Origin: Ectothiorhodospira sp. BSL-9
GTDB taxonomy: Bacteria; Pseudomonadota; Gammaproteobacteria; Ectothiorhodospirales; Ectothiorhodospiraceae
Direction of reading: 5' to 3'
Length of the DNA stretch: 64,000 nucleotides
Assembly (NCBI RefSeq): GCF_001632845.1
Contig: NZ_CP011994.1
Span: 620,001 to 684,000 of the forward strand
This document shows positions 2,890-17,996 of the stretch, one piece after another (within the stretch, counting starts at the first letter, position 1; each line of letters begins with the position of its first letter). Made by a program: the position numbers and the translations under genes. The notes under the pieces were generated by a model. It saw only the letters and a list, made by a program, of their open reading frames with translations. It was not told the origin of the DNA and did no database searches.

Positions 2890-2893
2890 GGCA

Positions 2894-2947
2894 TTCACGC
2901 AAACGTCACGCCTTCTTCACCCGCCTGAAAACCAACGCGCCTAGCAT
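2894..2947 (+). promoter_or_regulatory. PHO box and -10 for the GT4/PAP2 operon
   Basis: TCAC occurs at 2895, 2906 and 2917, i.e. three tandem 11-bp repeats as in PhoB binding sites. TAGCAT, a -10-like hexamer, begins 25 bases after the last TCAC (2942-2947), leaving a leader of about 23 bases before the ATG at 2977. The same geometry recurs at 8091, 9405 and upstream of pstS. Confidence 0.7.
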
Positions 2948-2976: not shown

Positions 2977-4218
2977 ATGCAGACTGCCCAGAAGACCCGG
3001 GAACCGGATCCGACCGCGCCAAACCCGGCCTCGGAACTGAACGACCAACCGAACCTGACCGCGGTGCCCAGGCAGCGGCTGCGCATCGCCATGATCACGG
3101 AGACCTTCCCGCCCGAGATCAACGGCGTGGCCCACACCCTGCACCAGATGGTGCATAGCATGCTGGAACGGGGGCATGAGGTTCACCTGATCCGCCCACG
3201 CCAGGGCAAGGGTGACAACGGCACCCTGGCACCTCGGGAAGGGCTGCAGGAGCAGCTCACCCAGGGCCTGCCGATCCCCGGCTACCCCGGCCTGCATTTT
3301 GGCCTGCCGGCCCGTGGCGCCATCCGCAAGGCATGGAAGGCCAACCCGCCGGACGTGATCTACGTGGCCACCGAGGGCCTGCTGGGCGGCTCCGTGCTAT
3401 CCGCTGCCCGGGCCATGGGTATCCCGGTGATCAGCGGCTTCCACACCAACTTCCATCGCTACAGCCAGTATTACGGCCTGGGGTTCCTGGCGCCGGCGAT
3501 CAGCTGGTTCCTGCGTCGCTTCCATCACCGCACCCAGTGCACCCTGGTGCCCACCGACACCCTGGCTCAAGAGCTGCAGGAGCAGGGTTTTGGCACCTGC
3601 CGCGTGCTGGCCCGGGGCGTGGACACCCAGCTATTCAACCCCGCCCGTCGTCGACCTGACCTGCGCGCCCAATGGGGCCTGGAGCCCGATGACCCGGCGG
3701 TGATCTACGTGGGCCGCCTGGCAGCGGAAAAGAATCTGGACCTGGCCGTGGAGGCCTTTCGTGCCATGCAGGCCCGCCAGCCCAAGGCGCGATTCATCCT
3801 GGTGGGCGATGGCCCCGCCGCCGCTGAACTGAGTGCACAGCACCCCGACCTGATCCTGGCGGGCGTGCACATCGGCGAGGAGCTGGCGGGTTATTACGCC
3901 AGCGGCGACATCTTCCTGTTCCCGTCCACCTCGGACACCTTCGGTAACGTGGTCCTGGAGGCCATGGCCTCGGGTCTGGCGGTGGTGTCCTACGACTATG
4001 CCGCGGGACGCCAGCATCTGCGCCACGGCGAGAGCGGCATGCTGGCCCGCTTCGATGATGCCGAGCAATTCATGGAATTGGCCACCGAGCTGGTGGCCGA
4101 ACCAGACACCTGGCGGCGCCTGGGTACCCAGGCCCGCGCCGAAGCCGAAACGGTGGACTGGCGCTGTGAGCACGACCGGCTGGAAGCCCTTTTCCTTGAG
4201 TACGCCCAAGCCAAGTGA
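2977..4218 (+). CDS. GT4 glycosyltransferase, MgtA/SqdX-like (probable diacylglycerol glycosyltransferase)
   Basis: A GT-B fold glycosyltransferase of 413 residues. The N-terminal acceptor domain begins at about residue 36 with RIAMITETFPPEINGV, typical of the MgtA/SqdX branch. The donor domain starts near IYVGRLAAEKNLD (about residue 242). The GT4 EX7E-type region is PSTSDTFGNVVLEAMASGL (about 313-332). Relatives transfer sugars to diacylglycerol or phosphatidylinositol. A PHO box lies directly upstream, pst genes and a PlcP-like hydrolase are nearby, and the PAP2 phosphatase follows after 10 bases, so glycolipid synthesis during phosphate limitation is the best guess. Donor sugar and acceptor are not deducible. 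The first 35 residues are a polar extension. Confidence 0.8.
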   Translation: MQTAQKTREPDPTAPNPASELNDQPNLTAVPRQRLRIAMITETFPPEINGVAHTLHQMVHSMLERGHEVHLIRPRQGKGDNGTLAPREGLQEQLTQGLPIPGYPGLHFGLPARGAIRKAWKANPPDVIYVATEGLLGGSVLSAARAMGIPVISGFHTNFHRYSQYYGLGFLAPAISWFLRRFHHRTQCTLVPTDTLAQELQEQGFGTCRVLARGVDTQLFNPARRRPDLRAQWGLEPDDPAVIYVGRLAAEKNLDLAVEAFRAMQARQPKARFILVGDGPAAAELSAQHPDLILAGVHIGEELAGYYASGDIFLFPSTSDTFGNVVLEAMASGLAVVSYDYAAGRQHLRHGESGMLARFDDAEQFMELATELVAEPDTWRRLGTQARAEAETVDWRCEHDRLEALFLEYAQAK

Positions 4219-4228
4219 GGTGTTCCCC

Positions 4229-4747
4229 ATGCGCATGATGCAGCGAATGACCGAAGCCGAACTCCCCCTGTGCCTGGCCTTCAACCGGGCCAACCACCAG
4301 TGGCTCACCCACCGGACCTTTGCCGTGGTGAGCCGCCTGGGCAATGGGGTGTTCTGGTATGTGCTGATGCTGGCCCTGCCCGTCATCCATGGCCTGTGGG
4401 CCCTGCAGGTGAGCCTGCACATGGCGCTGGTGGGCCTGCTCTGCCTTCCCATCTACAAGCTCCTGAAACAGACCACGGTCCGCGACCGCCCCTACACCCA
4501 GAACCAGGACATCCTGCAGAACGTACCGGCCCTGGACCGTTTCAGTTTCCCCTCGGGTCACACCATGCACGCCGTGGCCTTCACTATCATCCTGGTGGCC
4601 TATCTACCCACCTGGGCCTGGCTGGTGGTGCCCTTCACGGTGATGATCGCCCTGTCCCGACTGGTGCTGGGCCTGCACTATCCCAGCGACGTGCTGGCGG
4701 GCGCCGGCATCGGCGCTCTGGTGGCCTGCGTCAGCCTGATGCTTTAA
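4229..4747 (+). CDS. PAP2-family membrane phosphatase (phosphatidate phosphatase-like)
   Basis: A 172-residue integral membrane protein with all three PAP2 motifs: KX6RP (Lys80, Arg87-Pro88), PSGH (108-111) and SRX5HX3D (Ser143-Arg144, His150, Asp154). Four to five hydrophobic segments flank them and the active site is expected at the periplasmic face. PAP2 enzymes dephosphorylate phosphatidate, PGP or undecaprenyl pyrophosphate. Cotranscription with a PHO-box-driven glycosyltransferase suggests it supplies diacylglycerol and releases phosphate. The start at 4229 is chosen because it follows the previous stop closely; an open frame extends upstream but overlaps the glycosyltransferase. Confidence 0.85.
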   Translation: MRMMQRMTEAELPLCLAFNRANHQWLTHRTFAVVSRLGNGVFWYVLMLALPVIHGLWALQVSLHMALVGLLCLPIYKLLKQTTVRDRPYTQNQDILQNVPALDRFSFPSGHTMHAVAFTIILVAYLPTWAWLVVPFTVMIALSRLVLGLHYPSDVLAGAGIGALVACVSLML

Positions 4748-4760
4748 GACCTCGAACGCC

Positions 4761-6713
4761 TCAATCCGCGCACAACCGAAGGGCTCGCAACTGCGAGCTC
4801 TTCTTGCGTTGGTGGGACTGCATGCGCACCAGGATGTCGTTGAGGGTGTGCACCGCTTCAAGGATATAAGGCCCCTTGTTGAGCATGACACACTCGGCCC
4901 GTCCGGCCATGGCGGCATCGGTGAGTTCCGGACGGGAGATGGCCCCGCTCTTGGCCAGGGTCTCCAGCACCTGAGTGGCCCAGATCACCGGCACATGGGC
5001 CGCCTCGCACAGCCACAGGATCTCCTCCTGGATCTCCGCCAGCCGCTCGCCGCCGATCTCCACGGCCAGATCACCGCGAGCGATCATCACCCCCAGACGA
5101 TGACGCCCCAGGGTGGCCAGGATGATCTCGGAGAGGTTTTCCAGGGCGCGGCGCGTCTCGATCTTGGCCACCACACCCAGACCGGTGCCACCACGGCGGG
5201 CCAGTTCATCCATAAGGGCCACCATGTCCTGGCGGCATTCCACGAACGAGTAACCCACCAGATCCGCGTGGGCGACCACGAAGTCCAGATCCTTGAGATC
5301 CTGCTCGCTGAGAGAGGGCAGGTTCAGCCGGGCGCCGGGGAAGTTGAGACCCTTGTCTGCCCGAAGGCGACTGCCCTGGGGACGGCAATGGGTGATGCGA
5401 ACGGTCACGCCGCTCTCATCCACCGACTCCACCTGCCCGCCGATCTTGCCATCATCGATCCATACGGGCTGCCCCACCTCCAGCAACTGAAGTGCTTCCG
5501 GCGTGGAACAGGCGATGCGGGCGCAGCGTGTCACCTGGCCCCGGTCGTCCACCAGCGCCGGACGTCCCGGCACAGGATCACGGGTCAAATACAGCAGCGA
5601 TCCCTTGTAAAGACGGATATTCACCGGCTCTCGCGCCAACCACCCCAGGCGCAGGGACTGGACGCGCATTCGCTGGCCGTTGGCATCCGGCCGTGTCAGG
5701 ACGAACTCGGTCTCATCACTCACATAGGCCCCCTGGTTCAGGGTGGCCAGCCAGCCACCTCCCAGCAGGGGCTCCATCACTCTAAGCACCCGGGCCTTGC
5801 CACGGGTGTCGCAAAAACGCAGTTCATCCGCGGATTGAAGGCCATCCAGAGTGGCCTGGGGCAGCGAGAAGGCGTACTGACCCCGTGCCTGTACCGGATC
5901 CTGTCCCAAACCCTCTGGCAACAAGTGGACACGCGCGGGCTCGGTGACCCGGCCCAGGAGATTTCGCAGGGGTTTGATATGGGTGATGGCCGGCTTGAAG
6001 CCCAGCGGGCCGGTGCGCAACTTGTGGCCGGCCAGATCCATCAATACCGTGCAACGCCGCCCCAACTGCGCCTCAACGTCCCGAAGATGGCCGATCATGG
6101 CAGCCCAGGCCTGTGGATCGTCATGGGCGCAGTTGATGCGCGCGCAGTCCATCCCCTCCTCCATGAGCGCCCGCACCAGCTCGGGATTCACCGCCGCCGC
6201 GCTGGGCAGCGTGACCATGATGCGCACCTGACGGGGTCCGGAGGGGGCGCCAAAGAGTTGATCGGCATTATCCCTCAGGGTGGTCTCACCGGTGTCGTAG
6301 TCGATGGCGGGTTCGTCCTCCAGGCCGAGCACCTCACGACCCGTCAACTGCCCCAGCAAACCCGTCACCTGATTGATGCTGGCCAGCACATGGGCCTCGG
6401 TCCGCCCCAGGGACGACAGCCCCTGACGGGCCAGACCTCGCTGTATGGGGCGCAGATCCAGCGACCGGAAGGCCAGGTAATGGGCCAGATTCCGCGCGGA
6501 GAGGGGGATATCGCCGGGGTAGTCCCGGGAGAATCGGTCCAGGCGTCGATGCGCGCCCAGCAGCACCTCGGCGCGCAAGCTCAGCAACCCCTCCATCAAC
6601 GCCTCCAGGGAGTCGGTGGGTGGCGTGACATCGCGACAAGGCGCGGGGCCGGTCTCATCGACCTCAAGGGGGGCAAAAGGTGTGTGAATGGTTTCGGAAG
6701 CAGGTTTTTGCAT
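4761..6713 (-). CDS. pyruvate-kinase-like protein, long form without the C-terminal domain
   Basis: About 650 residues. A helical N-terminal region (about 150 residues, no match recognised) precedes a pyruvate kinase barrel. Visible catalytic elements are ARINCAH, DLAGHKLRTG, the lysine motif VAKIET, MIARGDLAVEIG and WATQVLETL. The B-domain-like insertion between the two barrel halves is much longer than usual. The protein stops after EAVHTLNDILVRM, so the C-terminal allosteric domain of canonical pyruvate kinase is absent. A second, ordinary pyk lies at 42322-43764. Open frame continues upstream to 6794, but 6793-6808 carries a PHO-box-like pair, so the ATG at 6713 is preferred. Phosphate-starvation control and PEP-to-pyruvate activity are inferred. 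Confidence 0.75.
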   Translation of the reverse strand: MQKPASETIHTPFAPLEVDETGPAPCRDVTPPTDSLEALMEGLLSLRAEVLLGAHRRLDRFSRDYPGDIPLSARNLAHYLAFRSLDLRPIQRGLARQGLSSLGRTEAHVLASINQVTGLLGQLTGREVLGLEDEPAIDYDTGETTLRDNADQLFGAPSGPRQVRIMVTLPSAAAVNPELVRALMEEGMDCARINCAHDDPQAWAAMIGHLRDVEAQLGRRCTVLMDLAGHKLRTGPLGFKPAITHIKPLRNLLGRVTEPARVHLLPEGLGQDPVQARGQYAFSLPQATLDGLQSADELRFCDTRGKARVLRVMEPLLGGGWLATLNQGAYVSDETEFVLTRPDANGQRMRVQSLRLGWLAREPVNIRLYKGSLLYLTRDPVPGRPALVDDRGQVTRCARIACSTPEALQLLEVGQPVWIDDGKIGGQVESVDESGVTVRITHCRPQGSRLRADKGLNFPGARLNLPSLSEQDLKDLDFVVAHADLVGYSFVECRQDMVALMDELARRGGTGLGVVAKIETRRALENLSEIILATLGRHRLGVMIARGDLAVEIGGERLAEIQEEILWLCEAAHVPVIWATQVLETLAKSGAISRPELTDAAMAGRAECVMLNKGPYILEAVHTLNDILVRMQSHQRKKSSQLRALRLCAD

Positions 6714-6792
6714 GGACGGGGACCACGTGGACCCGCCCCGCGAGGGGCGCGGATCGATTAGGGAATGAGACCCCATGGGATACCAGAACGGC

Positions 6793-6808
6793 ATGACAAA
6801 CGCGTGAC
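6793..6808 (-). promoter_or_regulatory. PHO-box-like pair upstream of the pyruvate-kinase-like gene
   Basis: On the minus strand TGTCAC and TGTCAT occur with their TCAC/TCAT cores exactly 11 bases apart. A weak hexamer TCTCAT (6765-6770) lies roughly 25 bases downstream. The pair overlaps the most upstream possible start codon of the gene, which argues for a later start. Confidence 0.5.
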
Positions 6809-6836
6809 AACACCTGCCCAGCCGGCCCAGGCCGCA

Positions 6837-6868
6837 GTCAAGAAAACGTCACAGTTCTGCCTTAGCAT
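6837..6868 (+). promoter_or_regulatory. PHO-box-like pair and -10 for the repeat lipoprotein gene
   Basis: GTCAAG at 6837 and GTCACA at 6848 are 11 bases apart. TAGCAT follows at 6863-6868, 25 bases from the first TCA core and 14 from the second, so in phase with the other sites. The lipoprotein ATG is at 6928. Confidence 0.5.
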
Positions 6869-6927
6869 CGACAGGATCACATGAGCGCCTGATCCCGTCC
6901 CTTTCCACACCCGAGGAAGTCTGACCC

Positions 6928-7356
6928 ATGAAATATGCACGCACCGCCCTGTTCACGGCCCTGGCTGCCACTCTTGTGGGGGCAGGCTGCCAAAGCACCC
7001 CATCCCATGATGCGACCACGATGGACGCCACCAGCGCCCAGCAGACCGCCCCCGAGGCCGCCTTCGCGAAACCCGGCTTCCGCGTGGAATTGGAGGATGG
7101 CCGGCTCTGGGTGCTCAAGCATGGCCAGGAGAAACCGGGCCGACCGGTGATCCTGATCGGTGCTGGCCCTCAGGGCATGACCCTGAAAGCCGTCGATCGC
7201 GAGACCGCTCTGGAATATGTGGCCGCCAAGCCCGACTTCGACGTCAGCGTTGAGGACGGGCGTCTGTGGGTGCTTCGGGAAGGTCAGGAGAAGCCACGCC
7301 CGCCCCGTGATGCTGATCGGTGCCGGTACCCCCTTATCGATGGGAAGGGGGCTTGA
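6928..7356 (+). CDS. small lipoprotein with two internal repeats; second repeat appears frameshifted
   Basis: An N-terminal signal sequence ends in a lipobox-like VGAGC (Cys21; the -3 residue is Gly rather than Leu). Two copies of a roughly 30-residue unit follow, starting at residues 51 and 104: FRVELEDGRLWVL...GQEKPGRPV and FDVSVEDGRLWVL...GQEKPRP. After the second GQEKPRP the annotated frame loses the repeat, whereas the next frame reads PVMLIGAG as in the first copy. One extra base in the C-rich stretch near 7297-7306 would explain this. The function is unknown. The upstream PHO-box-like site suggests a phosphate-linked role. The end overlaps the convergent higA by 23 bases. Confidence 0.55.
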   Translation: MKYARTALFTALAATLVGAGCQSTPSHDATTMDATSAQQTAPEAAFAKPGFRVELEDGRLWVLKHGQEKPGRPVILIGAGPQGMTLKAVDRETALEYVAAKPDFDVSVEDGRLWVLREGQEKPRPPRDADRCRYPLIDGKGA

Positions 7357-7705
7357 TCAGGCTCTCTGCTGGAATACCGAACATCCGATGCAGATTCCAA
7401 ACCATGGGAAGACTGAGTCCACGCTTGCCATTGAGGATTTCATAGACCCGATTTCTGCGACCAATAGCCGGTTCCAGGTCCTTGGCCGTCAAGCCACCCT
7501 GCTCCATGCGAAACTTGATGGCCTCAATGGGGTCAGGGAGATCCACGGGGTAATGCCTTGATTCGTAGGCCTCAATGAGGGTCATCAGAACCTCGAAACG
7601 ATCGCCTTCCAAAGACCCCGGTTCGGGCTCGTTTTCAAAGTAGGCAGACACCTCTCTCAGAGCCGCCTTGTAGTCTGCTTCAGTGCGAATCGGACGAATA
7701 TCCAC
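7334..7705 (-). CDS. higA: HigA-family antitoxin, XRE-type helix-turn-helix
   Basis: A 123-residue antitoxin. The N-terminal part (about 1-55) carries the acidic helical region typical of HigA proteins, and the helix-turn-helix covers about residues 70-112 (LTAKDLEPAIGRRNRVYEIL). It follows the toxin gene with a gap of 3 bases, the toxin-first order characteristic of higBA. It should neutralise HigB and repress the operon; a palindrome lies just upstream of the toxin gene. Confidence 0.85.
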   Translation of the reverse strand: MDIRPIRTEADYKAALREVSAYFENEPEPGSLEGDRFEVLMTLIEAYESRHYPVDLPDPIEAIKFRMEQGGLTAKDLEPAIGRRNRVYEILNGKRGLSLPMVWNLHRMFGIPAESLIKPPSHR

Positions 7706-7708
7706 GGG

Positions 7709-8011
7709 TCACTCCATCTCTATGGTTGCAGCATCCACCTTATCGTATTCCGCATGGGTACCGATGAACTTGACGTAAACCGCACCAAATCGGTAAGCCA
7801 CCGCGACGATCAGCCGATAGTCGTTTCCCTTGATGTTGAACACCACGCGCTTGCCGCCGACCATGCTGGCATTCCGGTACTTGGCTTTGATCTCGTGCGC
7901 ATCCTTCCAGTTCGCATGCTTCACTTCATCCACCCAAGCTTCCAGAGGCGCTTTTGCCTCAGGGCATCGCTCCCAGAAGTCACGCAGATTCTTGACAGCA
8001 ATGATCCTCAT
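7709..8011 (-). CDS. higB: HigB-family mRNA interferase toxin
   Basis: The 100-residue protein starts MRIIAVKNLRDFWE and contains the RelE-fold HigB hallmarks KYRNAS, RVVFNIKGNDYRL and VKFIGTHAEYD. Members cleave mRNA at the ribosome. The ATG at 8011 fits the family N-terminus; open frame reaches 8053 but would cross the palindrome at 8024-8038. It is the first gene of a two-gene unit with higA. Confidence 0.85.
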   Translation of the reverse strand: MRIIAVKNLRDFWERCPEAKAPLEAWVDEVKHANWKDAHEIKAKYRNASMVGGKRVVFNIKGNDYRLIVAVAYRFGAVYVKFIGTHAEYDKVDAATIEME

Positions 8012-8023
8012 TGCCGCCATCAT

Positions 8024-8038
8024 ATCCCATGATGGGAT
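8024..8038. promoter_or_regulatory. palindromic operator candidate of higBA
   Basis: ATCCCAT-G-ATGGGAT is a perfect 7-bp inverted repeat with a one-base centre, 13 bases upstream of the higB start. Autorepression by the antitoxin at such a site is typical of type II modules. Confidence 0.55.
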
Positions 8039-8090
8039 CAGGCGCGATGACATCCGGAATCGTTGCGCAAATGCAACACCTGTGGTGATT

Positions 8091-8143
8091 TCATCACAAT
8101 TTCACGCTTTCTTCACGGTAGCTTAACCCTGCACCGCCATATT
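8091..8143 (+). promoter_or_regulatory. PHO box and -10 of the porin gene
   Basis: TCAT at 8091 and TCAC at 8102 and 8113 form three 11-bp repeats. CATATT starts at 8138, 25 bases after the last repeat core, the same distance as at the GT4, plcP-like and pstS promoters. Confidence 0.7.
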
Positions 8144-8204
8144 TCTCCCCGGTTCGACAGGCTTGGGACGGCCTTTCCTTTCATAGACTTGGGGAGTCAT
8201 TCAT

Positions 8205-9299
8205 ATGCATCACAAGAAACTGATCGCGGCCATGGTCGCCGTGGGTATGTCCATGCCGGCCCTGGCCGTTGCCGACATGACGCTGTATGGGCGGGCCCAT
8301 CTGTCTGCCGACATCCTGGATGACGGTGACAACTACAGCGAGTTCAACGTCTCCAGCAACTCCAGCCGCCTGGGCTTCAAGGGCGAGCGTCAGTTCGCCG
8401 ATAACGTCACCGCCATCTTCCAGATCGAACAGCAGATCGATTTCGATGACTCCGGCACCGAATTCGCCACTCGCGACACCTTCGCCGGCCTGAAGGGCGA
8501 CTGGGGCATGCTGCGCGTGGGCAAGTTCGACACCCCCTTCAAGCGCGCCCGGGGCCCGGCCAACTTCTTCGGTGATCAGGTGGGCGACATGCGCAACCTG
8601 ACCCGCACCAATGACCATGGTCGTTTCGACGAGCGTTTCAGGAACAGCATCCATTACCGCACGCCTTCGCTGAACGGGCTGGTGTGGGATATCCAGTATT
8701 CGGCCGACAACTCCGGCCAGTCCACCGTCGAGGATGCCGAAAATCGCGCGGTGAGTACCTCCCTGGGCTTCCGTAATGGCCCCGTGAACGTGGTGGTGGC
8801 CTATGAAAATCAGAGTATCTATCGCGACGCCAACTCTGAATACGTTATCAATCAGAACACGGGAGACGTTGTCCTCAGATCAACGGGCGGCTTCGACTAC
8901 AACGCCGAAGCCTGGCGCCTGGCCGGCTCCTACCAGATCACCCCGGAATTCCGCCTGGGCGCCCTGTACCAGGTGACCGAAAGCACCCGCGGTGTCGAGG
9001 ATCAGGAAGGCAAGGTCTGGGGTTTCGGCGGCCAGTACAAGGCCAGCCCCAACGTCTACCTGAACGCCCACTGGTTCACCCTGGATTCCGACCTGGATGA
9101 CAACGACGCCAACCTCTACGCCATCGGCCTGGAATATCGTCTGGACAGCGCCCTGCGTTTCTACGGCAACATTGCCGTCACCGATAACGACGACAATTCC
9201 AGCCTGACCTCCTGGAGCGCCGCCCGCACCGCCAGCCCCAGCGGCGCTGCGGGTGAGAAGGCCACCGCCTTCTCCCTGGGCATGCGTTACGACTTCTGA
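8205..9299 (+). CDS. outer-membrane porin, general trimeric porin family
   Basis: The 364-residue precursor has a signal peptide (cleavage near ALAVA-DMTLYG, about residue 25). The mature start DMTLYGRAHLS and the strand LGFKGERQFADNVTAIFQIE are typical of proteobacterial 16-stranded porins. The C-terminus ends in Phe (GMRYDF), the BAM recognition signal. The constriction-loop region is near GLKGDWGMLRVGKFDTP. A PHO box upstream suggests induction by phosphate limitation, analogous to PhoE-type porins; anion preference cannot be judged by eye. It is followed by a strong terminator. Confidence 0.9.
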   Translation: MHHKKLIAAMVAVGMSMPALAVADMTLYGRAHLSADILDDGDNYSEFNVSSNSSRLGFKGERQFADNVTAIFQIEQQIDFDDSGTEFATRDTFAGLKGDWGMLRVGKFDTPFKRARGPANFFGDQVGDMRNLTRTNDHGRFDERFRNSIHYRTPSLNGLVWDIQYSADNSGQSTVEDAENRAVSTSLGFRNGPVNVVVAYENQSIYRDANSEYVINQNTGDVVLRSTGGFDYNAEAWRLAGSYQITPEFRLGALYQVTESTRGVEDQEGKVWGFGGQYKASPNVYLNAHWFTLDSDLDDNDANLYAIGLEYRLDSALRFYGNIAVTDNDDNSSLTSWSAARTASPSGAAGEKATAFSLGMRYDF

Positions 9300-9354
9300 T
9301 CACGGTCTGTGATCGGGGCAGGGACGCCCCCTCCTCTGCAAGCATGGCGATTTT

Positions 9355-9383
9355 GGCCCGGCCCTACCCGCCGGGCCTTTTTT
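9355..9383 (+). terminator. Rho-independent terminator of the porin gene
   Basis: A GC-rich stem GGCCCGG (9355-9361) pairs with CCGGGCC (9371-9377) and is followed by six T residues (9378-9383), 56 bases after the porin stop. Confidence 0.9.
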
Positions 9384-9404
9384 ATTGGAACTGCAACCGA
9401 ACGA

Positions 9405-9446
9405 TCACGACGGCTTCACCGACGTGAAAGATCATTCATTCAGCAT
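9405..9446 (+). promoter_or_regulatory. PHO box and -10 upstream of the PlcP-like gene
   Basis: TCAC at 9405 and 9416 are 11 bases apart, and CAGCAT at 9441-9446 starts 25 bases after the second, matching the other Pho sites in the window. Confidence 0.6.
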
Positions 9447-9652
9447 GGGCGCTGAACCCTGGAAGAGCACCCCGGGTGGACGATTCAATGGGTGGTGACA
9501 GGGCGCCGCCCGCATGCCTTACCGGGCGGGAAAGCAGACGACATGCAAACAGCGATCCTCAACGACGGTCATCCCAATGCCATCCAGCCTTGATCCGACA
9601 GTCATGTCGGGCGGGGATAATCGGCGCAGATTCCAAACGGGACATCCTCATC
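9447..9652 (+). other. about 200-base leader of the PlcP-like gene
   Basis: If transcription starts just after 9446, the transcript has a long 5' leader. It contains a perfect 6-bp inverted repeat, CCGACA-GTCA-TGTCGG (9595-9610), and GATAAT at 9616-9621 that could be a second -10. The reading frame stays open from 9476 but shows no coding character. No known riboswitch was recognised. Confidence 0.35.
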
Positions 9653-10498
9653 ATGGGTACCATCCACTGCCGCAGCATCTTCCTGTCCGACGTCCACCTG
9701 GGCACGCGTCAGTCCCGGGCCGATTACCTGCTGGATTTTCTCGAGTCCACCGAGTGCGAGTCCCTCTATCTGGTGGGTGATATCTTCGACCTGTGGAGCA
9801 TGAGGCGCAGCGTTTACTGGAGTGCGGATCACAGCGCCGTGATCCAGAGCATTCTGGACAAGGCCCAGGCGGGTACGCGGGTGATCTATATCCCGGGCAA
9901 CCATGACGAGGCCCTGCGGGCGTTCGTGGGCACGGTGTTCCAGGGGGTGAGCGTGCAGCGTCAGGCGGAGCATATGACCGCCGATGGGCGTCGCTTTCTG
10001 GTGAGTCACGGGGATGAGTTCGACACCCTGGTGAAGCACAACCGGCTGGCCAAGGCCCTGGGAGATGGGGCTTACAAGGTGCTGCTGCGCATCAACCAGG
10101 CCTATAACGCCTGGCGCATGCGCATGGGGCATCCCTACTGGTCGCTATCCGGCCATGTGAAAACACGCGTCGGCAAGGCCAGGGAGTATATCCGTCGATT
10201 CGAGGAAGCCGCTGCGGGACGGGCCTCGGAGCGGGCCTATGATGGGTATATCTGCGGCCATATCCACAAGGCAGGGATTGAGCGCATTGACGGGGTGCTG
10301 TACTGCAACGATGGTGACTGGGTGGAGCATTGCACGGCGCTGACGGAGGATTTTCAGGGTAATATCCGGCTGATGCACTGGTCGAATCACAGCCGCGAGG
10401 AGGCGCTGCACCCGGCGCCAGCCCTCACCCCTCTCCCGCAAGCAGGAGAGGGGTTGAAACCTGCCTTCCTTCAGTCCCGGGCGGGCTCGGGGCTGTAG
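9653..10498 (+). CDS. plcP: PlcP-type metallophosphoesterase (phospholipase C), usually annotated as LpxH-like
   Basis: A 281-residue calcineurin-like phosphoesterase. The metal ligands are all visible: Asp13 and His15 (SDVHLG), Asp43 (VGDIFD), Asn83-His84 (PGNHDE), His119 (SHGDEFD), His203 and His205 (CGHIH). Length and motifs such as YLVGDIFDLW, YWSLSGHVK and DGDWVEHCTA fit the PlcP branch better than the roughly 240-residue lipid A enzyme LpxH. PlcP enzymes cleave membrane phospholipids to diacylglycerol during phosphorus starvation, feeding glycosyltransferases. A PHO box upstream and a Pho-controlled GT4 gene 5 kb away support this. The last 30 or so residues are encoded by an inserted palindromic repeat and look non-conserved. 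An LpxH-like role is the alternative. Confidence 0.75.
   Translation: MGTIHCRSIFLSDVHLGTRQSRADYLLDFLESTECESLYLVGDIFDLWSMRRSVYWSADHSAVIQSILDKAQAGTRVIYIPGNHDEALRAFVGTVFQGVSVQRQAEHMTADGRRFLVSHGDEFDTLVKHNRLAKALGDGAYKVLLRINQAYNAWRMRMGHPYWSLSGHVKTRVGKAREYIRRFEEAAAGRASERAYDGYICGHIHKAGIERIDGVLYCNDGDWVEHCTALTEDFQGNIRLMHWSNHSREEALHPAPALTPLPQAGEGLKPAFLQSRAGSGL
10428..10453. repeat. palindromic repeat inside the 3' end of the PlcP-like gene
   Basis: CCCCTCTCC (10428-10436) and GGAGAGGGG (10445-10453) form a perfect stem, preceded by CCCTCA. The same kind of element occurs at 45213-45268 between pgk and gap. Here it is translated as part of the C-terminal tail. Confidence 0.7.
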
Positions 10499-10818: not shown

Positions 10819-10848
10819 GATCAATGGCCCCCGAGTTGGGACTTTTGG

Positions 10849-10992: not shown

Positions 10993-11730
10993 CTACTGCG
11001 AGTCCCCCTCCGGCGCGTCACCCCGGGCGACTCGCTCCATCTCATCCAGGCTGATGTGCCGAACATCCTTGCCCTTGACCAGGTAGATCACGTATTCGCA
11101 CATGTTGCGGGAATGATCGCCCACACGTTCCAGGGCGCGGATGGCCCAGACCACGTCCAGGGCCCGGGAGATGGTGCGCGGGTCTTCCATCATGAAGGTG
11201 ATGTGCTGACGCATCACCGCCTCGTAGTCCCGATCCACATTGATGTCTTCCCGGGCCGTGGCCAGGGCGGCATCCACGTCCAGACGGGCAAAGGCATCCA
11301 CGGCGTTGTGCACCAGCTGCGCCACCTTGTCACCCAGGGCCTTCACATCGGCATACTGGTTACGCGGCCGATCCTTCTCCGCCAGATGCAGCGCCATGCG
11401 GGCCACCTTTTCGGCCTGGTCGCCGATGCGCTCCAGGTCGGTGATGGTCTTGATGATGGCCAGGATAAAACGCAGGTCGCTGGCGGCGGGCTGATGCCGG
11501 GCCAGGATCTCGGAGCAATGCTCGTCGATGAGCACTTCCATGCTGTTCACCCGCACATCCTCCTGGATCACCTCGTCGGCCAGGGCGGTGTCTGCCGTGG
11601 CCAGGGCGTTGACGGCATTGGCCACCTGTTTCTCCACCAGCGTGCCCATACTGAGCACACGAAGACGCAGGGTCTCCAGCTCTTCATTGTATTTTTCCAG
11701 GTAGTGACCACCCAGACTGCTCTGATCCAT
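10993..11730 (-). CDS. phoU: phosphate transport/Pho regulon regulator PhoU
   Basis: A 245-residue all-helical protein with the two PhoU repeats. The metal-binding-type motifs ITDLERIGDQAEKVA and IRALERVGDHSRNM are clear. PhoU links the Pst transporter to the PhoR kinase and limits phosphate uptake. The ATG at 11730 is chosen because of the GAGGTG site seven bases upstream. It is the last gene of the pstSCAB-phoU set, 53 bases after pstB. Confidence 0.93.
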   Translation of the reverse strand: MDQSSLGGHYLEKYNEELETLRLRVLSMGTLVEKQVANAVNALATADTALADEVIQEDVRVNSMEVLIDEHCSEILARHQPAASDLRFILAIIKTITDLERIGDQAEKVARMALHLAEKDRPRNQYADVKALGDKVAQLVHNAVDAFARLDVDAALATAREDINVDRDYEAVMRQHITFMMEDPRTISRALDVVWAIRALERVGDHSRNMCEYVIYLVKGKDVRHISLDEMERVARGDAPEGDSQ

Positions 11731-11783
11731 CGCCGTGCACCTCTGTTGGGAATCTGTATCAAACGTCGCCTGCAAACCGGACA

Positions 11784-12647
11784 TCACCCGTAGCGACCGG
11801 TGATATAGTCTTCCGTCGCCTTCTTGCGGGGGTTGGTGAACAGGGTCATGGTATCGCCATACTCCACCATCTCCCCCAGATACATATAGGCCGTGTAATC
11901 GGAGACACGGGCGGCCTGCTGCATGTTGTGGGTGACGATCAGAATGGTGTAATCCTTCTTGAGCTCGTAGATCAGCTCCTCGATCTTCGCCGTGGAGATG
12001 GGGTCCAGAGCCGAGGCCGGCTCATCCAGCAGGATCACCTCCGGCTCGATGGCAATGGCCCGGGCAATCACCAGGCGCTGCTGCTGACCGCCGGAGAGGC
12101 CGAAAGCGTTCTGGTTCAGGCGATCCTTCACTTCGTCCCAGAGGGCTGCCGAACGCAGCGACCGTTCCACCGCCTCTGCCAGCACCTGACGATTGTTGAC
12201 GCCTTGCAGGCGAAGCCCGTAGGCCACATTCTCGAAGATGGACTTGGGGAATGGATTGGGCTTCTGAAACACCATGCCCACCCGGCGACGCAATTCGGCG
12301 ACATCCACCTTGCGATCGTAGATATCCTTCCCTTCCAGGCGGATGGTCCCCTCAATACGGCAGGAGTCCACCAGGTCGTTCATGCGATTAAAGCACCGCA
12401 GCAGGGTGGACTTGCCACAACCGGAGGGGCCGATGAAGGCGGTGACCCGGTTGGCGGCCAGTTTGAAGGAAATGTTCTTGAGGGCCTGATCCTCGCCGTA
12501 GTAAAGGTTGAGTTTGTCCACTTCCAGCGCCATACGCTCATCGGAGAGCTTGAGGCGCTTGGCGTTCGGGTTCTCGAACAGGCTCGAGGCGATGCCGTGG
12601 CTCGAGGCCGGGGCACTGTTGTCAGTCTGTGTCATTGTGGCATCCAT
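11784..12647 (-). CDS. pstB: phosphate ABC transporter ATP-binding protein PstB
   Basis: A 287-residue ABC ATPase with Walker [12 protein letters not shown], signature LSGGQQQRL, Walker [13 protein letters not shown] and the switch His in VTHNMQQA. It drives high-affinity phosphate uptake on the cytoplasmic face of PstCA. The sequence [13 protein letters not shown] is typical of PstB. The start at 12647 is preferred over the upstream frame end at 12689, which would cross into the end of pstA. Confidence 0.95.
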
Positions 12648-12685
12648 TGGAGTCACTCTTTCTGTATCTTGCCTGGGGCGGTGGA

Positions 12686-14365
12686 TCAATCGGATTCACT
12701 GCGGTACTTCTCCCGCAGCCGGTTGCGGATGCTGATGGCCGTAAGGTTCAGCAACACAATCAGCACCACCAGGGTCATGGCCGTGGCATACACCAGCGGC
12801 TGGGCTGCCTCCACGTTGGGACTCTGGAAGCCCACGTCAAAGATGTGGAAGCCCAGGTGCATGATCTTGCGTTCCAGGTGGATGAAGGGGAAGTTCCCGT
12901 CGATGGGCAGGGTCGGGGCCAGCTTGACCACGCCCACCAGCATCAGCGGTGCCACCTCGCCCGCCGCTCGCGCAATGGCCAGGATCAGTCCGGTCATCAT
13001 GGCCGGCGTGGCAAGAGGCACCACTACCTTCCACAGGGTTTCGGCCTTGGTGGCCCCCAGTGCCAGGCTACCCTGACGGATGGTGCTGGGGATACGCGCC
13101 AGCCCCTCCTCGGTGGCAACGATCACCACCGGCAGGGTCAGCAGTGCCAGGGTGAGCGAGGCCCACAGCAGACCCGGGGTTCCAAAGGTGGGTGATGGGA
13201 GTGCTTCCGGGAAGAACTGCTGGTCCACGGCCCCCCCCACGAAGTAGACGAAAAAGCCCAGACCGAACACCCCGAAGACGATGGACGGCACGCCTGCCAG
13301 GTTGTACACGGAGATGCGTATCGTTCGCAGCAACGGCCCCTGGCGGGCATATTCACGCAGGTAGATGGCTGCCAGCACCCCGAACGGCGACACAATGATG
13401 GACATGACGAACACCATGGTCACGGTGCCGAAGATGGCCGGCAGGATCCCACCTTCGGTGTTGGCCTCGCGGGGGTAACCGCTGATGAACTCCCAGAACT
13501 GCACCACATACAGCCCCGTCTTGGCGACCACGGACATGTCATTGGGCTGGATGGCGCGGATGATCTGGGCCAATGGCAGATCCACTTCCCGACCGTCCAT
13601 GACCCGGGCCACCAGGGTGTCCCGGCGCACGTCCTGATAGAGTTCATCCAGGCGGTTTTGCAACACGCCATACTCTTCATTCAACTCCGCGCGACGGGCT
13701 TCCAGCTCCGCCATGGCCTCTTCCTGGGTGGCGCGATCAATGCGCCCCGCACGCCGATCCATTGCCAGGCGGCGTTCGTCCAGACGCACCCGCTCCATGC
13801 GCTGGTTGACCCGGCCGATCTCCCGGCGCTCGATACGGCGGATCTCGTCGAAGATGTCATTGGCGCGACCGATCCGCTGCTGGAGCTCCGGCCAGAGGTT
13901 CTCGCCCTCGGCCACCGTACGTCCCGCCTCCTTCACGCGCACAGGATAGCCGTAGAAGTCCCCCCATTCGCGTCGTTCCAGGCGCATGGCCTCCTTGGGA
14001 AAACGCCATTCCTCCATACCCGTTTCCGGATACCAGACAAAGTCGCGGCCCCAGACGTCCCGGTTGCCCTGCTTGATCAGGTGGCGCGTGACCAGGTTGA
14101 TGTCGGCCGGGATGTTCACGCCCGCGTCCCGCATCACCTCGGCGGGCAGGGTCTGGGATCGGGACAGTTCGCCCATCACCTGGACCTGGCTGCCGTCGGG
14201 CTGGGTGACGGTGGTCTCCAGGATTGGCGTGGGCCAGAAATGTGAGAAGCCACGCACCAGGATCAGCGACAGCAACCCCACCACCATGATCATGCTGATG
14301 GCGATGGCGCCGGCATTGAGCCACACCCAGGGTGAACCGCTTTTAAACCATTGCTTGAGTGTCAT
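12686..14365 (-). CDS. pstA: phosphate ABC transporter permease PstA, long form
   Basis: The 559-residue permease is about twice the E. coli length. After the first membrane segment (about 20-40) comes a roughly 240-residue extracytoplasmic insertion rich in charged helices (residues about 160-250 resemble a coiled coil). The conserved permease core follows, with the ABC-coupling motif around [19 protein letters not shown]. Long PstA forms are also known in Pseudomonas-type systems. It lies 17 bases downstream of pstC and 38 upstream of pstB. Confidence 0.93.
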
Positions 14366-14382
14366 CGTTGAAGATTCCGGGC

Positions 14383-16683
14383 CTACAGGTTGCTGTAACG
14401 CTGGCGCAGACGCTGGCGCACGATCTCGGCGGCGGTATTGAGCACGAAGGTGAGCACCAGCAGCACCAGGGCCGAGAGGAACAGGATGCGGTAATGGGTG
14501 CTGCCCACCGCCGTCTCGGTGAGTTCCACGGCGATATTGGCCGACAGGGTGCGCATGCCCTCAAAGATGTTGAAGTTGATGACCGGGGTGTTGCCCGTGG
14601 CCATGAGCACGATCATGGTTTCCCCCACGGCGCGTCCGAAGCCCATCATCACGGCGGCGAAGATGCCGGGGCTGGCGGTGGGCAGCACCACGCCGACCAC
14701 CGTTTGCCAGGCCGTGGCTCCCAGAGCCAGCGATCCCTGTGTAAGGTGCCTGGGCACCGTGTAGACCGCATCCTCGGCGATGGAAAAGATGGTGGGGATC
14801 ACCGCAAAGCCCATGGCAATGCCCACCACCAGGGCGTTGCGCTGGTCATACGTTATGCCCACGTCCGTGAGCCACTGGCGGGTGCTGCCATCGAAGAACC
14901 ACACTTCCACCATGGGGCTCAACAGCACGCACACCCACGCCATGATCAGGATGGCGGGCACCAGGATGAGCATTTCCATGCCTGCCGGGATACGCATGCG
15001 AATCGATTCAGGCATGCGTGTCCATGCAAACCCCACCACCAGCATGAGCAGCGGCAGCAGGATGAAGATACTGAACACTGCCGGCAGGTGAGATTCGATG
15101 AAGGGCGCCAGCCACAGACCCGCGAGAAAGCCGAGGATCACCGTGGGCATGGCTTCCATCACCTCCACAGTGGGCTTGACGAGGCCCCGCAGGTGACGCT
15201 GCATGAAGTAGGCGGTGTAGATGGCCCCCATGATGGCCAGCGGCGTGGCAAACAGCATGGCGTAGAACGCCGCCTTGATGGTGCCCAGCGTGACCGGCAC
15301 CAGGCTGAACTTGGGCTCGAAATCGTCCGTGGCGCCGGAGGACTGCCAGGTGTAGGTGGGCTCGTTGCGCCCTTCGTACCACACCTTGCCCCACAAGGCG
15401 CTCAGGGAGACCTCCGGATGCGGATTGCGCAGGCTCATGGGCATGATCCGTCCATCCGGATCCAGCACCAGCATGGCTCGGTTGACCGGTGACAGCCCGA
15501 TGGCCTGAATGGGCCCGTCCAGGACGGTTTCCTGCATGAGGGTGCGATTGGAGGTGGCGAAGTGGATGCTCAGTCCACCGGCGGCATCCCCCACCACGAA
15601 GCCCTTGCGAGCCAGTTCCGGCGAGATGCTGGCAATGGGCGCCGGTTGCGACTCGAAACTGCGCACATGCATGAGACGGCGAACGTTGTCCTCATCCCGC
15701 GCCAGGAACCACTGGGACAGTGACCCGTCGGTACCGCCGACGATGATGGACTGTGTACCCACCAGGAACTCCATGGCGGTCACATCATGATCCTCACCCA
15801 CCACGCGCACGGTCTCCACCAACCGGGCGTTGCGCGGGTTGGAGACATCGTAATAGTGGATCTGGGATTCATTGTCGGCCACGAACACGGCGCGATGATC
15901 CGCATCCACCAGCACCCGTCGGGTCACACCGGGAGGCGAAGGCAGTTCATAGGCGCTGTGCTCGATTTCGGTCTCGCCCGTGAACAGATTGGTGGAGGTG
16001 CGGTACAGGCTGAAGACCAGTCGGTTATCAGCAGTGAGACCAGCAATGGCAAATCCGCGACTCCCCTCCTGGATGCCCACCTGGATCAGGGGCTCCCCTT
16101 GCGGGTCCATGACCACCGGCTCTTCACCCAGTGGGAAGGTGAGCTTGGGCTCGATGTATCTCACACCGTCCGGATAAGTCAGATCGTACTCGTGCCGGGC
16201 CACCACGGCCGTGCCGTCGGACAACCCGTAGGCCACCAGGCGCTGGCGCGCCTCGGCAGCGGCAAAACTGGTGATGCTCGCTTCTGATGGAATGGGCAAG
16301 TCCACGGCGTTGCGGACCTGGCCATTGGGCGTCTCGAAAAAGGTGGCCACCCCATCATCCGAGAACCGCACCCCCAGTTCCTGGTAGCGCTCCAGGGCCA
16401 GAAACAGGGTTTGCGCGGCGGGTTCGCCAGGGATCTGGTAGCTCTCATGAGGCGTGACATCCGCCGGCATGAGCATGGGCACGACTTCATAGAAGAGATA
16501 GACGAAGATCAGTCCCAGGGCGACCACGACCCCGATGCCGCCGGCGCCCACGCCATAGCGGGAGACGCCATCCTTGAAATAGCGCCATTTCCTGAGCCGG
16601 GCGCGTTTGACGCCACTGGGCAGAAGGGCCGCATCCCGGGGGCTTTCGCCCCCCCTACCAATGGCCGGGTTGGTTGTGCTCAT
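14383..16683 (-). CDS. pstC: phosphate ABC transporter permease PstC, long form
   Basis: The 766-residue protein has a first membrane helix near residues 45-70 and a roughly 370-residue extracytoplasmic domain. Stretches such as ADNESQIHYYDVS and VGGTDGSLSQW look like beta-propeller blades. The permease core with the coupling loop [13 protein letters not shown] lies in the C-terminal third. It has its own PHO-box-like promoter and is separated from pstS by a hairpin. The extra domain may interact with PstS or the matching PstA insertion; that is inference. Confidence 0.93.
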   Translation of the reverse strand: MSTTNPAIGRGGESPRDAALLPSGVKRARLRKWRYFKDGVSRYGVGAGGIGVVVALGLIFVYLFYEVVPMLMPADVTPHESYQIPGEPAAQTLFLALERYQELGVRFSDDGVATFFETPNGQVRNAVDLPIPSEASITSFAAAEARQRLVAYGLSDGTAVVARHEYDLTYPDGVRYIEPKLTFPLGEEPVVMDPQGEPLIQVGIQEGSRGFAIAGLTADNRLVFSLYRTSTNLFTGETEIEHSAYELPSPPGVTRRVLVDADHRAVFVADNESQIHYYDVSNPRNARLVETVRVVGEDHDVTAMEFLVGTQSIIVGGTDGSLSQWFLARDEDNVRRLMHVRSFESQPAPIASISPELARKGFVVGDAAGGLSIHFATSNRTLMQETVLDGPIQAIGLSPVNRAMLVLDPDGRIMPMSLRNPHPEVSLSALWGKVWYEGRNEPTYTWQSSGATDDFEPKFSLVPVTLGTIKAAFYAMLFATPLAIMGAIYTAYFMQRHLRGLVKPTVEVMEAMPTVILGFLAGLWLAPFIESHLPAVFSIFILLPLLMLVVGFAWTRMPESIRMRIPAGMEMLILVPAILIMAWVCVLLSPMVEVWFFDGSTRQWLTDVGITYDQRNALVVGIAMGFAVIPTIFSIAEDAVYTVPRHLTQGSLALGATAWQTVVGVVLPTASPGIFAAVMMGFGRAVGETMIVLMATGNTPVINFNIFEGMRTLSANIAVELTETAVGSTHYRILFLSALVLLVLTFVLNTAAEIVRQRLRQRYSNL

Positions 16684-16767
16684 GGTGCTCGTCGTCTTGA
16701 TGAAGGGAAAGACGGGGTGACGCCCCTTCGGGCTCCACCGTATCGGCGCTCACGCTAACCCACGAAC

Positions 16768-16784
16768 GTGACAGTTTCGTGACG
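16768..16784 (-). promoter_or_regulatory. PHO-box-like pair upstream of pstC
   Basis: On the minus strand CGTCAC and TGTCAC lie 11 bases apart (cores complementary to 16779-16782 and 16768-16771), about 85 bases before the pstC start. A degenerate third repeat adjoins at 16790. Confidence 0.55.
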
Positions 16785-16812
16785 GCGTCATGAAGCGCAG
16801 AGATTGAAAAGA

Positions 16813-16841
16813 CCAAGGCCCCGCGAGAGGCGGGGCCTTGG
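16813..16841 (-). terminator. terminator or attenuator between pstS and pstC
   Basis: A perfect 12-bp stem (16813-16824 with 16830-16841) and a five-base loop, followed on the minus strand by TCTTTTC. It would trim most pstS transcripts and give more PstS than permease. Confidence 0.75.
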
Positions 16842-16879
16842 CCAGGGCGGCGGACCTGCCATGCCCGCCCTGCCCCACT

Positions 16880-17857
16880 TTAGTCGAGACCCAACTCGGC
16901 GCGCATGCGGCTCGCCACAGACTCGGGCAGCGGCACGAAGCCATCACGCGCGGTCACTTCCTGACCCTGCCTGGACAGCACCATTCTCAGGAACTCGCGC
17001 TCCAGCGGGGGCAGACCATCGTTGGGATGGGCATTCACATACAGCATCAGGGAGCGGGCCAGCGGGTAGTCGCCAGCCAGGGCATTTTCCGCAGTGGGCT
17101 CAAACAGCTGACCGTCTTCAGCACCCAGCTTGATGGCCCGAACGCCTGCAGTCTGGTAGCCGATACCGGAGTAACCCACGGCATTGACGGACTCGGTGAC
17201 GCCCTGTACCACGGAAGCCGAACCCGGCTGCTCGTTCACGTCGTCACTGAAATCACCGCCGCACAAGGCATGCTGCCGGAAATAGCCATAGGTGCCGGAC
17301 ACAGCGTTGCGACCGAACAGGGCCACATCACGGTTTTCCCAGCCACCGGTCAGACCCAACTGACCCCAGCGGGTGACACGCTCATCCGCGCCACAACGGC
17401 GGGTTTCCGAGAACACGGAGTCCACCTGGGGAAGGCTCATGCCTTCGATGGGGTTGTCCTTGTTCACGAAGACAGCCAGCAGGTCGATGCCCACGGCCAC
17501 CTCAGTGGGCGGATAACCATGACGCTCCTCGAAGGACTGCTTCTCGGAGGAGCGCATGGCGCGGCTCATGGGGCCGAAGTTGGCGGTGCCCTCGGTGATG
17601 GCCGGCGGCGCGGTGCCGGAGCCAGCGCCCTGGATCTGGATGTTGACGTTGGGGTAGAAGCGGTTGAACTCCTCGGCCCACAGGGTCATGAGGTTGTTCA
17701 GGGTGTCGGAACCGATGGAGGACAGGTTGCCGGAGATGCCCGAGACGCGCTCGTAGGTGGGCAGGTTCGGATCAACTTCGCTGGACTGGACGGGACCGGC
17801 CATCACCAGCGCGGCGGATACGCCGGCGGCGACAAAGGCTTTCTTGAGGTGCTTCAT
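16880..17857 (-). CDS. pstS: phosphate-binding periplasmic protein PstS
   Basis: The 325-residue precursor has a signal peptide ending near MAGPVQS. Typical PstS features are [12 protein letters not shown], the phosphate-site [19 protein letters not shown], and SGTYGYFRQ. It delivers phosphate to PstCA. The ATG at 17857 has a GAGG site six bases upstream. A three-repeat PHO box lies about 110 bases upstream. Confidence 0.93.
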
Positions 17858-17940: not shown

Positions 17941-17996
17941 AGTATGGGAAGCGCCGGTGTCTTCTTTGTGACGTAAAGATGACGATTTGATGACAG
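17941..17996 (-). promoter_or_regulatory. PHO box and -10 of pstS
   Basis: On the minus strand CTGTCAT, TCGTCAT and ACGTCAC are spaced 11 bases apart (17990-17996, 17979-17985, 17968-17974). CATACT (17941-17946) starts 25 bases after the last TCAC. This is the best PHO box in the window and anchors the interpretation of the others. Confidence 0.8.

Follow-up and report, generated by a model that had tools for sequence, protein, structure and literature searches.

A putative lipid-renovation locus in a purple sulfur bacterium: PlcP, an Agt2-type glycosyltransferase and its PAP2 phosphatase partner

From which source does a bacterium that builds sugar lipids when phosphate is scarce draw its diacylglycerol (DAG)? 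The question is raised by a 64,000-nucleotide stretch of the complete 3.55-Mb genome of the purple sulfur bacterium Ectothiorhodospira sp. BSL-9 (contig NZ_CP011994.1, positions 620,001 to 684,000; hereafter the window), in which a GT4-family glycosyltransferase gene at 2977 is followed by a gene for a PAP2-superfamily phosphatase at 4229 and, further on, by one for a metallophosphoesterase at 9653. DAG can arise only in two ways, by removal of the phosphate from phosphatidate or by the action of a phospholipase C, and the phospholipase PlcP is the likely main source in marine heterotrophs, two marine strains of which appear to be without phosphatidate phosphatases (PMC4796936). As far as that account goes, phosphatidate phosphatases have been suggested as the DAG source for cyanobacteria only (PMC4796936, citing Nakamura 2007), and yet a Pseudomonas aeruginosa ΔplcP mutant still makes some glucuronosyl-DAG (GADG); the authors of that study take this to mean that DAG is supplied in another way (PMC8528852).

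An initial annotation had read the three genes as a set that remodels phospholipids into glycolipids. The three open reading frames are genuine, lie where they had been placed and give Pfam matches above the curated cut-offs; GT4 and PAP2 do adjoin, but plcP forms a separate unit, with a convergent pyruvate kinase gene, small genes and a porin gene intervening. The lipid-renovation reading is supported by the clades into which the hydrolase and the glycosyltransferase fall, function being predicted from that kinship. Our preferred account, which we hold with moderate confidence, is that PhoB-induced PlcP and the Agt2-type GT4 make phosphorus-free glucuronosyl-DAG, with PAP2 as a second supply of DAG.

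The hydrolase and the glycosyltransferase

By its sequence the hydrolase at 9653 is a PlcP, and its predicted activity is the hydrolysis of phosphatidylethanolamine (PE) or phosphatidylglycerol (PG) to DAG. It shares 47% identity with the PlcP of P. aeruginosa and 48% with that of Sinorhizobium meliloti, as against 25% over 131 amino acids with the LpxH of its own genome. Both reference proteins were named by gene context, and their mutual identity of 46.6% agrees with the printed figure of 46% (PMC8528852). In a 57-row tree (4 rows LpxH-type; duplicates, rows under 180 residues and near-identical rows of a genus left out) the PlcP and LpxH sides each receive 100/100 support, and the window protein stands on the PlcP side with the two characterised enzymes. 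This phylogeny was the test on which the initial annotation had staked its reading, together with a search for a separate lpxH, and the latter gene is indeed present elsewhere in the genome (L004, ~2.06 Mb), its product scoring 316 and 301 bits on two LpxH models with cut-offs of 134 and 190. The window protein reaches 46 and 37 bits on the same models; its candidacy as LpxH was set aside on these scores, the separate LpxH and the PlcP clade.

The full set of metal ligands that had been claimed for the hydrolase holds: an alignment of 30 PlcP-type sequences, both characterised ones included, shows no variation at D13, H15, D43, N83, H119, H203 and H205. LpxH has most of the same residues. The length of 281 residues, which had also been offered as an argument for PlcP, is poor evidence because the alignment stops by residue 265 in 23 of 25 family relatives, with Ectothiorhodospira haloalkaliphila and one other reaching 280 or 281. 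The tail of the plcP frame past the usual alignment end (10420-10498 on the forward strand, PLPQAGEG...) may, at a guess, be read-through of an intergenic repeat.

For the glycosyltransferase the initial GT4 assignment stands, but the label 'MgtA/SqdX-like' gives way to Agt2-type, on a tree of Agt1-type, GT4b and Agt2-type sequences. The P. aeruginosa Agt2 used here was identified by context, behind plcH-plcR; from this context and the locus numbering we take it to be PA0842. The window GT4 is 51% identical to it. In an 80-row tree, from which identical or short rows and loci L001-L051 were left out, the sequences divide into Agt1-type (16 rows), GT4b (13 rows; some relatives have a member of this clade beside PlcP) and Agt2-type (51 rows), each clade supported at 100/98 or better, and the window GT4 and the gene behind plcH-plcR are both found in the Agt2-type clade (100/98), apart from Agt1. 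Orthology with the glycosyltransferase that adjoins PlcP in a sister genus was set aside, the latter being a GT4b of the other clade. Searched against the genome that encodes it, the GT4 query gives, after itself, a best match with an E-value of 3.8e-13. Comparisons of GT4 with GT4b or Agt1-type proteins give stronger values, from 1e-24 to 1e-47, and a second glycosyltransferase of Agt1 or GT4b type is therefore unlikely. Among the named GT4 matches listed the closest come from E. haloalkaliphila (93% identity) and E. magna (85%).

Agt2 of P. aeruginosa is a proven glycolipid synthase that makes GADG from UDP-glucuronic acid and DAG (PMC8528852), and membership of its clade makes glucuronosyl-DAG the predicted sugar lipid of the window enzyme. 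As for the sugar donor, three NDP-sugar dehydrogenases in the genome score above the TIGR03026 cut-off. The best equivalog model of the dehydrogenase at L155 is UDP-glucose 6-dehydrogenase (459 bits, below the cut-off of 700), and a similar nucleotide-sugar dehydrogenase gene adjoins the glycosyltransferase in loci L110 and L209.

The GT4-PAP2 pair and its partners

The initial annotation had seen PAP2 as an addition to a PlcP-glycosyltransferase pair. The link to PAP2 is borne out, with the roles reversed: the conserved core is GT4-PAP2, while PlcP and the ornithine-lipid genes olsB and olsA are partners that come and go. PAP2 lies directly 3' of GT4 in all 39 genomes of the family that have a full GT4, with gaps of 8-91 bp. 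In a sample of the class (274 genomes, 32 with GT4) we found PAP2 on the same strand in 24 of 29 GT4 neighbourhoods outside the family, and within 300 bp in 21; the weakest of these PAP2 matches have 34-39% identity, and plcP intervenes in loci L102 and L104. Counted by family over the 32 GT4 genomes, the pair (nearby, same strand) was seen at least once in 20 of 22 testable families, our own included. We also surveyed 80 named loci, which are the best 80 of at least 587 relatives and therefore not a random sample; here PAP2 immediately follows the glycosyltransferase in 37, among them loci of Thiobacillus, Dyella, Rhodanobacter and 5 of 6 Marinobacter.

PlcP is less regular. It is found directly 3' of the glycosyltransferase in 5 of the best 80 named loci and in 2 of the 27 usable class loci (the 29 minus 2 edge loci), and it is present in 25 of the 39 family GT4 genomes; the other 14 are without a full plcP, 2 of them holding a fragment and 3 being less than 80% complete. 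In 14 family genomes PlcP and GT4 lie on one contig, no more than 10 kb apart in 12. Across the class PlcP occurs in 24 of 32 genomes with GT4 versus 54 of the 242 others (Fisher p 6.9e-9, ignoring relatedness). All 8 class GT4 genomes without PlcP have PAP2 and all 4 without a PAP2 neighbour have PlcP, a pattern that is suggestive only, because at these margins chance alone predicts about 1 genome lacking both. The best 80 named loci comprise 36 with PAP2 only, 15 with PlcP only, 2 with both and 27 with neither (p=0.0009, uncorrected for relatedness), which we do not claim as proof because too few independent pairs were available to the phylogeny-aware test. No PAP2/PlcP association appeared in the 27 usable class loci (p=0.50). 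An Acinetobacter baumannii record (L152:6001-7716) has the GT4-PAP2 pair; the PlcP search matched nothing in it but LpxH (288 and 234 bits, above the cut-offs).

Ornithine-lipid genes recur beside the pair, as in the gene orders GT4-PlcP-PAP2-GT4b-OlsB-OlsA (L102) and GT4-PAP2-OlsB-DgkA-PlcP (L070). Among 29 family glycosyltransferase loci that were fetched, 23 hold an OlsB-like and 16 an OlsA-like gene, whose products score 160 and 144 bits on the NCBIfam models, under the respective cut-offs of 320-350 and 300. In four of six PlcP-less family neighbourhoods OlsB and OlsA lie immediately upstream; a fifth also holds the two, with OlsA on the downstream side, and the sixth has neither. Sister loci L052 and L053 keep olsB next to plcP, and E. 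haloalkaliphila has retained the gene too. Unlike these many relatives, the window genome gave no OlsB match, in a search run without a positive control, although the same query finds OlsB in sister loci (local tblastn, 65-67%). In A. baumannii olsB responds to phosphate, and a low-phosphate lipid named U3 is missing from a phoR mutant (PMC11828411). It is speculation, but the A. baumannii GT4-PAP2 genes are candidates for U3, which could be a glycolipid of the kind considered here.

Pho-type sites and the role of PAP2

Pho control of the GT4 and plcP units is supported by their orthologs and by tandem arrays, and less by the window's own site pairs; PhoB would presumably bind these sites. Weights were taken from the E. 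coli consensus, printed in PMC11828411 as CTGTCATNNNNCTGTCAT. With four 7-bp half-sites at 11-bp spacing scored and all window positions ranked, the array before GT4 came 9th and that before plcP 2nd of 127,922 (as triples, 18th and 7th of 127,944; as pairs, 85th and 6th of 127,966). The window's top array is located before pstS, and the pst region has arrays at 17957 and 16757-16768. The array ranks are less independent because scoring by arrays came second, after scoring by pairs; the ortholog test preceded the array scoring. That test scored pairs of half-sites against 200 dinucleotide shuffles in upstream stretches of at least 150 bases. The PHO boxes that had been announced at both units thus stand as tandem arrays and in orthologs and fail as pairs in the window itself (GT4, p=0.24, where the best pair differs from the 2892-2931 array; plcP, p=0.08).

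Significant pairs (p<0.05) were found in 34 of 59 ortholog GT4-operon leaders (Fisher 4e-22) and in 6 of 28 plcP promoters (Fisher 1.7e-7), both Fisher values being inflated by related sequences and the window's own promoters not counting among the 34 or the 6. Controls gave 0/4 for apaH, 0/9 for an aminotransferase-like gene, 0/5 for F20 and 1/13 for a rhodanese gene, and genes expected to be under Pho control gave 1/1 (pstC) and 1/3 (phoA). The best pair falls at -82 to -89 in 15 of 28 plcP promoters, the window's included; before GT4 in the Ectothiorhodospira sister loci L052 and L053 it falls at the distance of the window's array (-85) with similar letters (p 0.85 and 0.39, not significant).

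What, then, does the phosphatase act on? PAP2 enzymes are recognized by the catalytic motifs KX6RP, PSGH and SRX5HX3D. All three are present in the window protein, and the residues K81, R88-P89, P109-S110-G111-H112, S144-R145, H151 and D155 are invariant in 45 of 45 sequences. From each of two further alignments in the analysis one reference with a stop codon was left out. Its predicted structure (pLDDT 94.6) superposes on Aquifex aeolicus LpxE with Z 20.9 and a root-mean-square deviation of 2.1 over 163 residues at 26% identity, and on Bacillus subtilis PgpB with Z 18.2; what Foldseek and VIA-align establish is the common PAP2 fold. It resembles these lipid phosphatases in fold and catalytic motifs and differs from them in being partnered with an Agt2-type glycosyltransferase. 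The protein is the sole PF01569 match in the genome. A housekeeping role as undecaprenyl diphosphate or phosphatidylglycerophosphate (PGP) phosphatase was set aside, because a UppP and a PgpA family gene, one of each, are found elsewhere. The most likely task of PAP2 is to convert phosphatidic acid (PA) into DAG for the glycosyltransferase, as a second supply besides PlcP, a substrate suggested by the company that the gene keeps.

The main rival is that PAP2 is an LpxE-like lipid A 1-phosphatase, performing a separate phosphorus-saving step that is merely co-regulated, with DAG coming from PlcP or another enzyme. We consider this unlikely. LpxE is the top phmmer match of PAP2 in the PDB, lpxH stands directly 3' of GT4-PAP2 in one genome (L112:5972-8436), so that lipid A genes can adjoin the pair, and other DAG sources exist, because E. 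coli can make DAG by MdoB (PMC4796936). However, GT4 genomes without a full PlcP all keep PAP2, 8 of 8 in the class and 14 of 14 in the family (the latter with the fragments and incomplete genomes mentioned above), and PAP2 reaches 30.5 bits on the NCBIfam LpxE model against a cut-off of 177, although the fold match is strong and PAP2 scores of such size do not discriminate substrates.

Much less probable is that GT4 glycosylates PG rather than DAG, in the manner of GpgS, with PAP2 increasing PG by acting on PGP. The P. aeruginosa GpgS (PMC12713373) is likewise a GT4-family enzyme with a lipid acceptor, and the best NCBIfam model of the window GT4 is N-acetylglucosaminyl-PG synthase; its 145 bits fall far under the cut-off of 480, though, and this model also comes out best, at 135 bits, for P. 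aeruginosa Agt2 (named by context), whose activity as a DAG glucuronosyltransferase is proven (PMC8528852). The N-acetylglucosaminyl-PG synthase identity was set aside on these grounds, and the PgpA family gene is available for PGP. Neither a deacetylase nor a flippase gene adjoining GT4 was found among the neighbours identified. We give slightly less credit still to the idea that GT4 helps to build a surface polysaccharide and that PAP2 recycles the undecaprenyl diphosphate needed for it. Undecaprenyl-diphosphatase is the best NCBIfam model of PAP2 (51.5 bits, cut-off 250), but the genome has a BacA/UppP gene, GT4 belongs to the Agt2 clade, and the recurring neighbours of the pair include OlsB, OlsA, PlcP and DgkA. 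It is scarcely credible that the product of the gene at 9653 is an additional LpxH, or some other phosphoesterase, unconnected with lipid renovation. In favour are the Metallophos family, common to it and LpxH, and the LpxH scores noted above; against stand the shortfall of these scores from the cut-offs, the true LpxH elsewhere, its identity to and common clade with two characterised PlcPs, and a Pho array that ranks second in the window.

Several observations weigh against PAP2 as a DAG supply under Pho control. The closest solved fold is that of LpxE, and the window's promoters are not significant as pairs. P. aeruginosa Agt2 and all 13 Pseudomonas-titled loci among the best 80 are without a PAP2 neighbour, and any phosphatase there would therefore be located elsewhere; 27 of these 80 have neither PAP2 nor PlcP within the stretch covered. 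PlcP and PAP2 often coexist in a genome (25 of 39 in the family), and in 11 of those 25 the contig with PlcP is not the one with GT4. When relatedness is allowed for, an exchange of PAP2 for PlcP has no statistical support (median p=1, from 5 independent pairs on starred branches).

Having weighed these points we retain PAP2 as a second DAG supply and propose the following scheme. Upon phosphate starvation PhoB would switch on two neighbouring units, GT4-PAP2 and plcP. PlcP would remove the phosphate head of PE or PG to leave DAG, and the Agt2-type GT4 would place glucuronic acid from UDP-glucuronic acid on this DAG, giving an anionic, phosphorus-free lipid able to substitute for PG. PAP2 would dephosphorylate PA, providing DAG straight from new lipid synthesis in a PlcP-independent branch, and relatives that have no PlcP would draw most of their DAG from it. 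The scheme builds on what can be read from sequence: the families to which the proteins belong, an LpxH gene apart from plcP, the conserved gene pair, sites of Pho type and a nucleotide-sugar dehydrogenase gene. From these we infer the actual lipids, the PAP2 substrate and PhoB binding.

The Pho island and its meaning

The first 18 kb of the window form a Pho island made up of GT4-PAP2, pyruvate kinase, a porin, plcP, phoU-pstB-pstA-pstC and pstS (Table 1). PstB (415.5 bits), PstA (239.7), PstC (199.2) and PstS (234.9) all score above their own cut-offs, and PhoU above one of two model cut-offs.

Table 1. Genes and PhoB-type arrays of the Pho island, in window coordinates.
Feature	Coordinates	Strand	Remarks
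PhoB-type array before GT4	2892..2931	+	CATTCAC, ACGTCAC, TCTTCAC, CTGAAAA, 11-bp spacing; rank 9/127,922
GT4 glycosyltransferase, Agt2 clade, predicted glucuronosyl-diacylglycerol synthase	2977..4218	+	Pfam GT4 above curated cut-off
PAP2-superfamily lipid phosphatase	4229..4747	+	PF01569, 80 bits; likely start ATG 4229; ~10 bp 3' of GT4
PRK14725-type pyruvate kinase, convergent with PAP2	4761..6794	-	728 bits, cut-off 642
Gram-negative porin, Pho-island neighbour	8205..9299	+	PF13609, 139.5 bits; Pho-type array at 8088, rank 7/127,922
PhoB-type array before plcP	9566..9605	+	CGGTCAT, ATGCCAT, CCTTGAT, CAGTCAT, 11-bp spacing; rank 2/127,922
PlcP-type metallophospholipase C	9653..10498	+	Pfam match above curated cut-off
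pstS-pstC-pstA-pstB-phoU phosphate uptake genes	10993..17857	-	Place plcP in the Pho island

A Pho-controlled pyruvate kinase is unexpected. Its Pho box (6793-6810, reverse strand) is the window's best two-half-site match by softened weights and the third by another weight set, and 6 of 9 orthologs have a significant one; the gene also adjoins GT4-PAP2 in another family (L099). We regard it as a neighbour in the Pho island and do not claim it as an enzyme of the lipid pathway. The porin, given its Pho-type array, is perhaps a phosphate or anion porin. Between these two, two small genes (7334-8053, reverse strand) resemble a HigBA-type toxin-antitoxin pair, judged from their open reading frames, with no NCBIfam match at 1e-8; sister loci L052 and L053 have phoA and a sulfotransferase gene in their place. 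The frame at 1750-2889 (forward strand), adjoining a CbbR-like regulator gene, weakly resembles CsoSCA, the carbonic anhydrase of carboxysomes (24 bits, cut-off 21.5), and that at 10471-10824 (reverse strand), overlapping the end of plcP, resembles an MntA-like minimal nucleotidyltransferase (42.5 bits, cut-off 60).

The PlcP-Agt pathway of Gammaproteobacteria is already published for P. aeruginosa (PMC8528852), and by sequence the window genome holds it in an Agt2-only form. The two systems share orthologous PlcP and an Agt2-type glycosyltransferase, Pho boxes and a DAG intermediate (PMC8528852). They differ in that Agt1 adjoins PlcP in P. aeruginosa and Agt2 is without a PAP2 neighbour there, whereas here PAP2 lies 3' of the glycosyltransferase and no second enzyme of Agt1 or GT4b type was seen in the genome. 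The plcP-agt systems of SAR11, Agrobacterium and Methylosinus are alike in passing from PlcP to DAG and by a GT4 enzyme to MGDG or GADG under Pho control (PMC4796936, PMC9239053); the plcP neighbourhoods, as one section of PMC4796936 describes them, name btaAB and glycosyltransferases, not PAP2. Supply from phosphatidate phosphatases, as proposed for cyanobacteria, likewise has PA converted to DAG, in place of the PlcP reaction, for glycolipid synthesis, but as set out there describes no pairing (PMC4796936), whereas the window phosphatase gene is fixed behind an Agt2-type glycosyltransferase, in a Pho-type context and in Gammaproteobacteria. The PA-to-DAG chemistry is not a new idea because that source already sets it out (PMC4796936); what is added is a phosphatase gene tied to the glycosyltransferase. 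Within those parts of the open-licence literature that were covered, no pairing of a PAP2 phosphatase gene with a PlcP/Agt glycosyltransferase was found; 'PAP2' stands for LpxE in a table of PMC2691993 and for part of plasmid names in PMC10128005.

A broader and more tentative proposal, possible though not quite probable in our view, is that PAP2 is across Gammaproteobacteria a dedicated PhoB-controlled PA phosphatase, feeding a PlcP-independent route from PA through DAG to glucuronosyl-DAG, often together with ornithine-lipid synthesis, and that such an enzyme is the DAG source left in plcP mutants. A supply of the PAP2 type would fit the unexplained DAG of the P. aeruginosa plcP mutant. With a phosphatase gene adjoining this type of glycosyltransferase, or a short way behind it, in 20 families of bacteria, there is now a concrete candidate for the PlcP-independent DAG source, and the question becomes testable. 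For the purple sulfur bacterium itself, these genes probably allow phosphorus-containing membrane lipids to be swapped for a sugar lipid when phosphate is scarce, and the finding predicts glycolipid remodelling in groups without PlcP as well as in phototrophic and chemolithotrophic sulfur bacteria.

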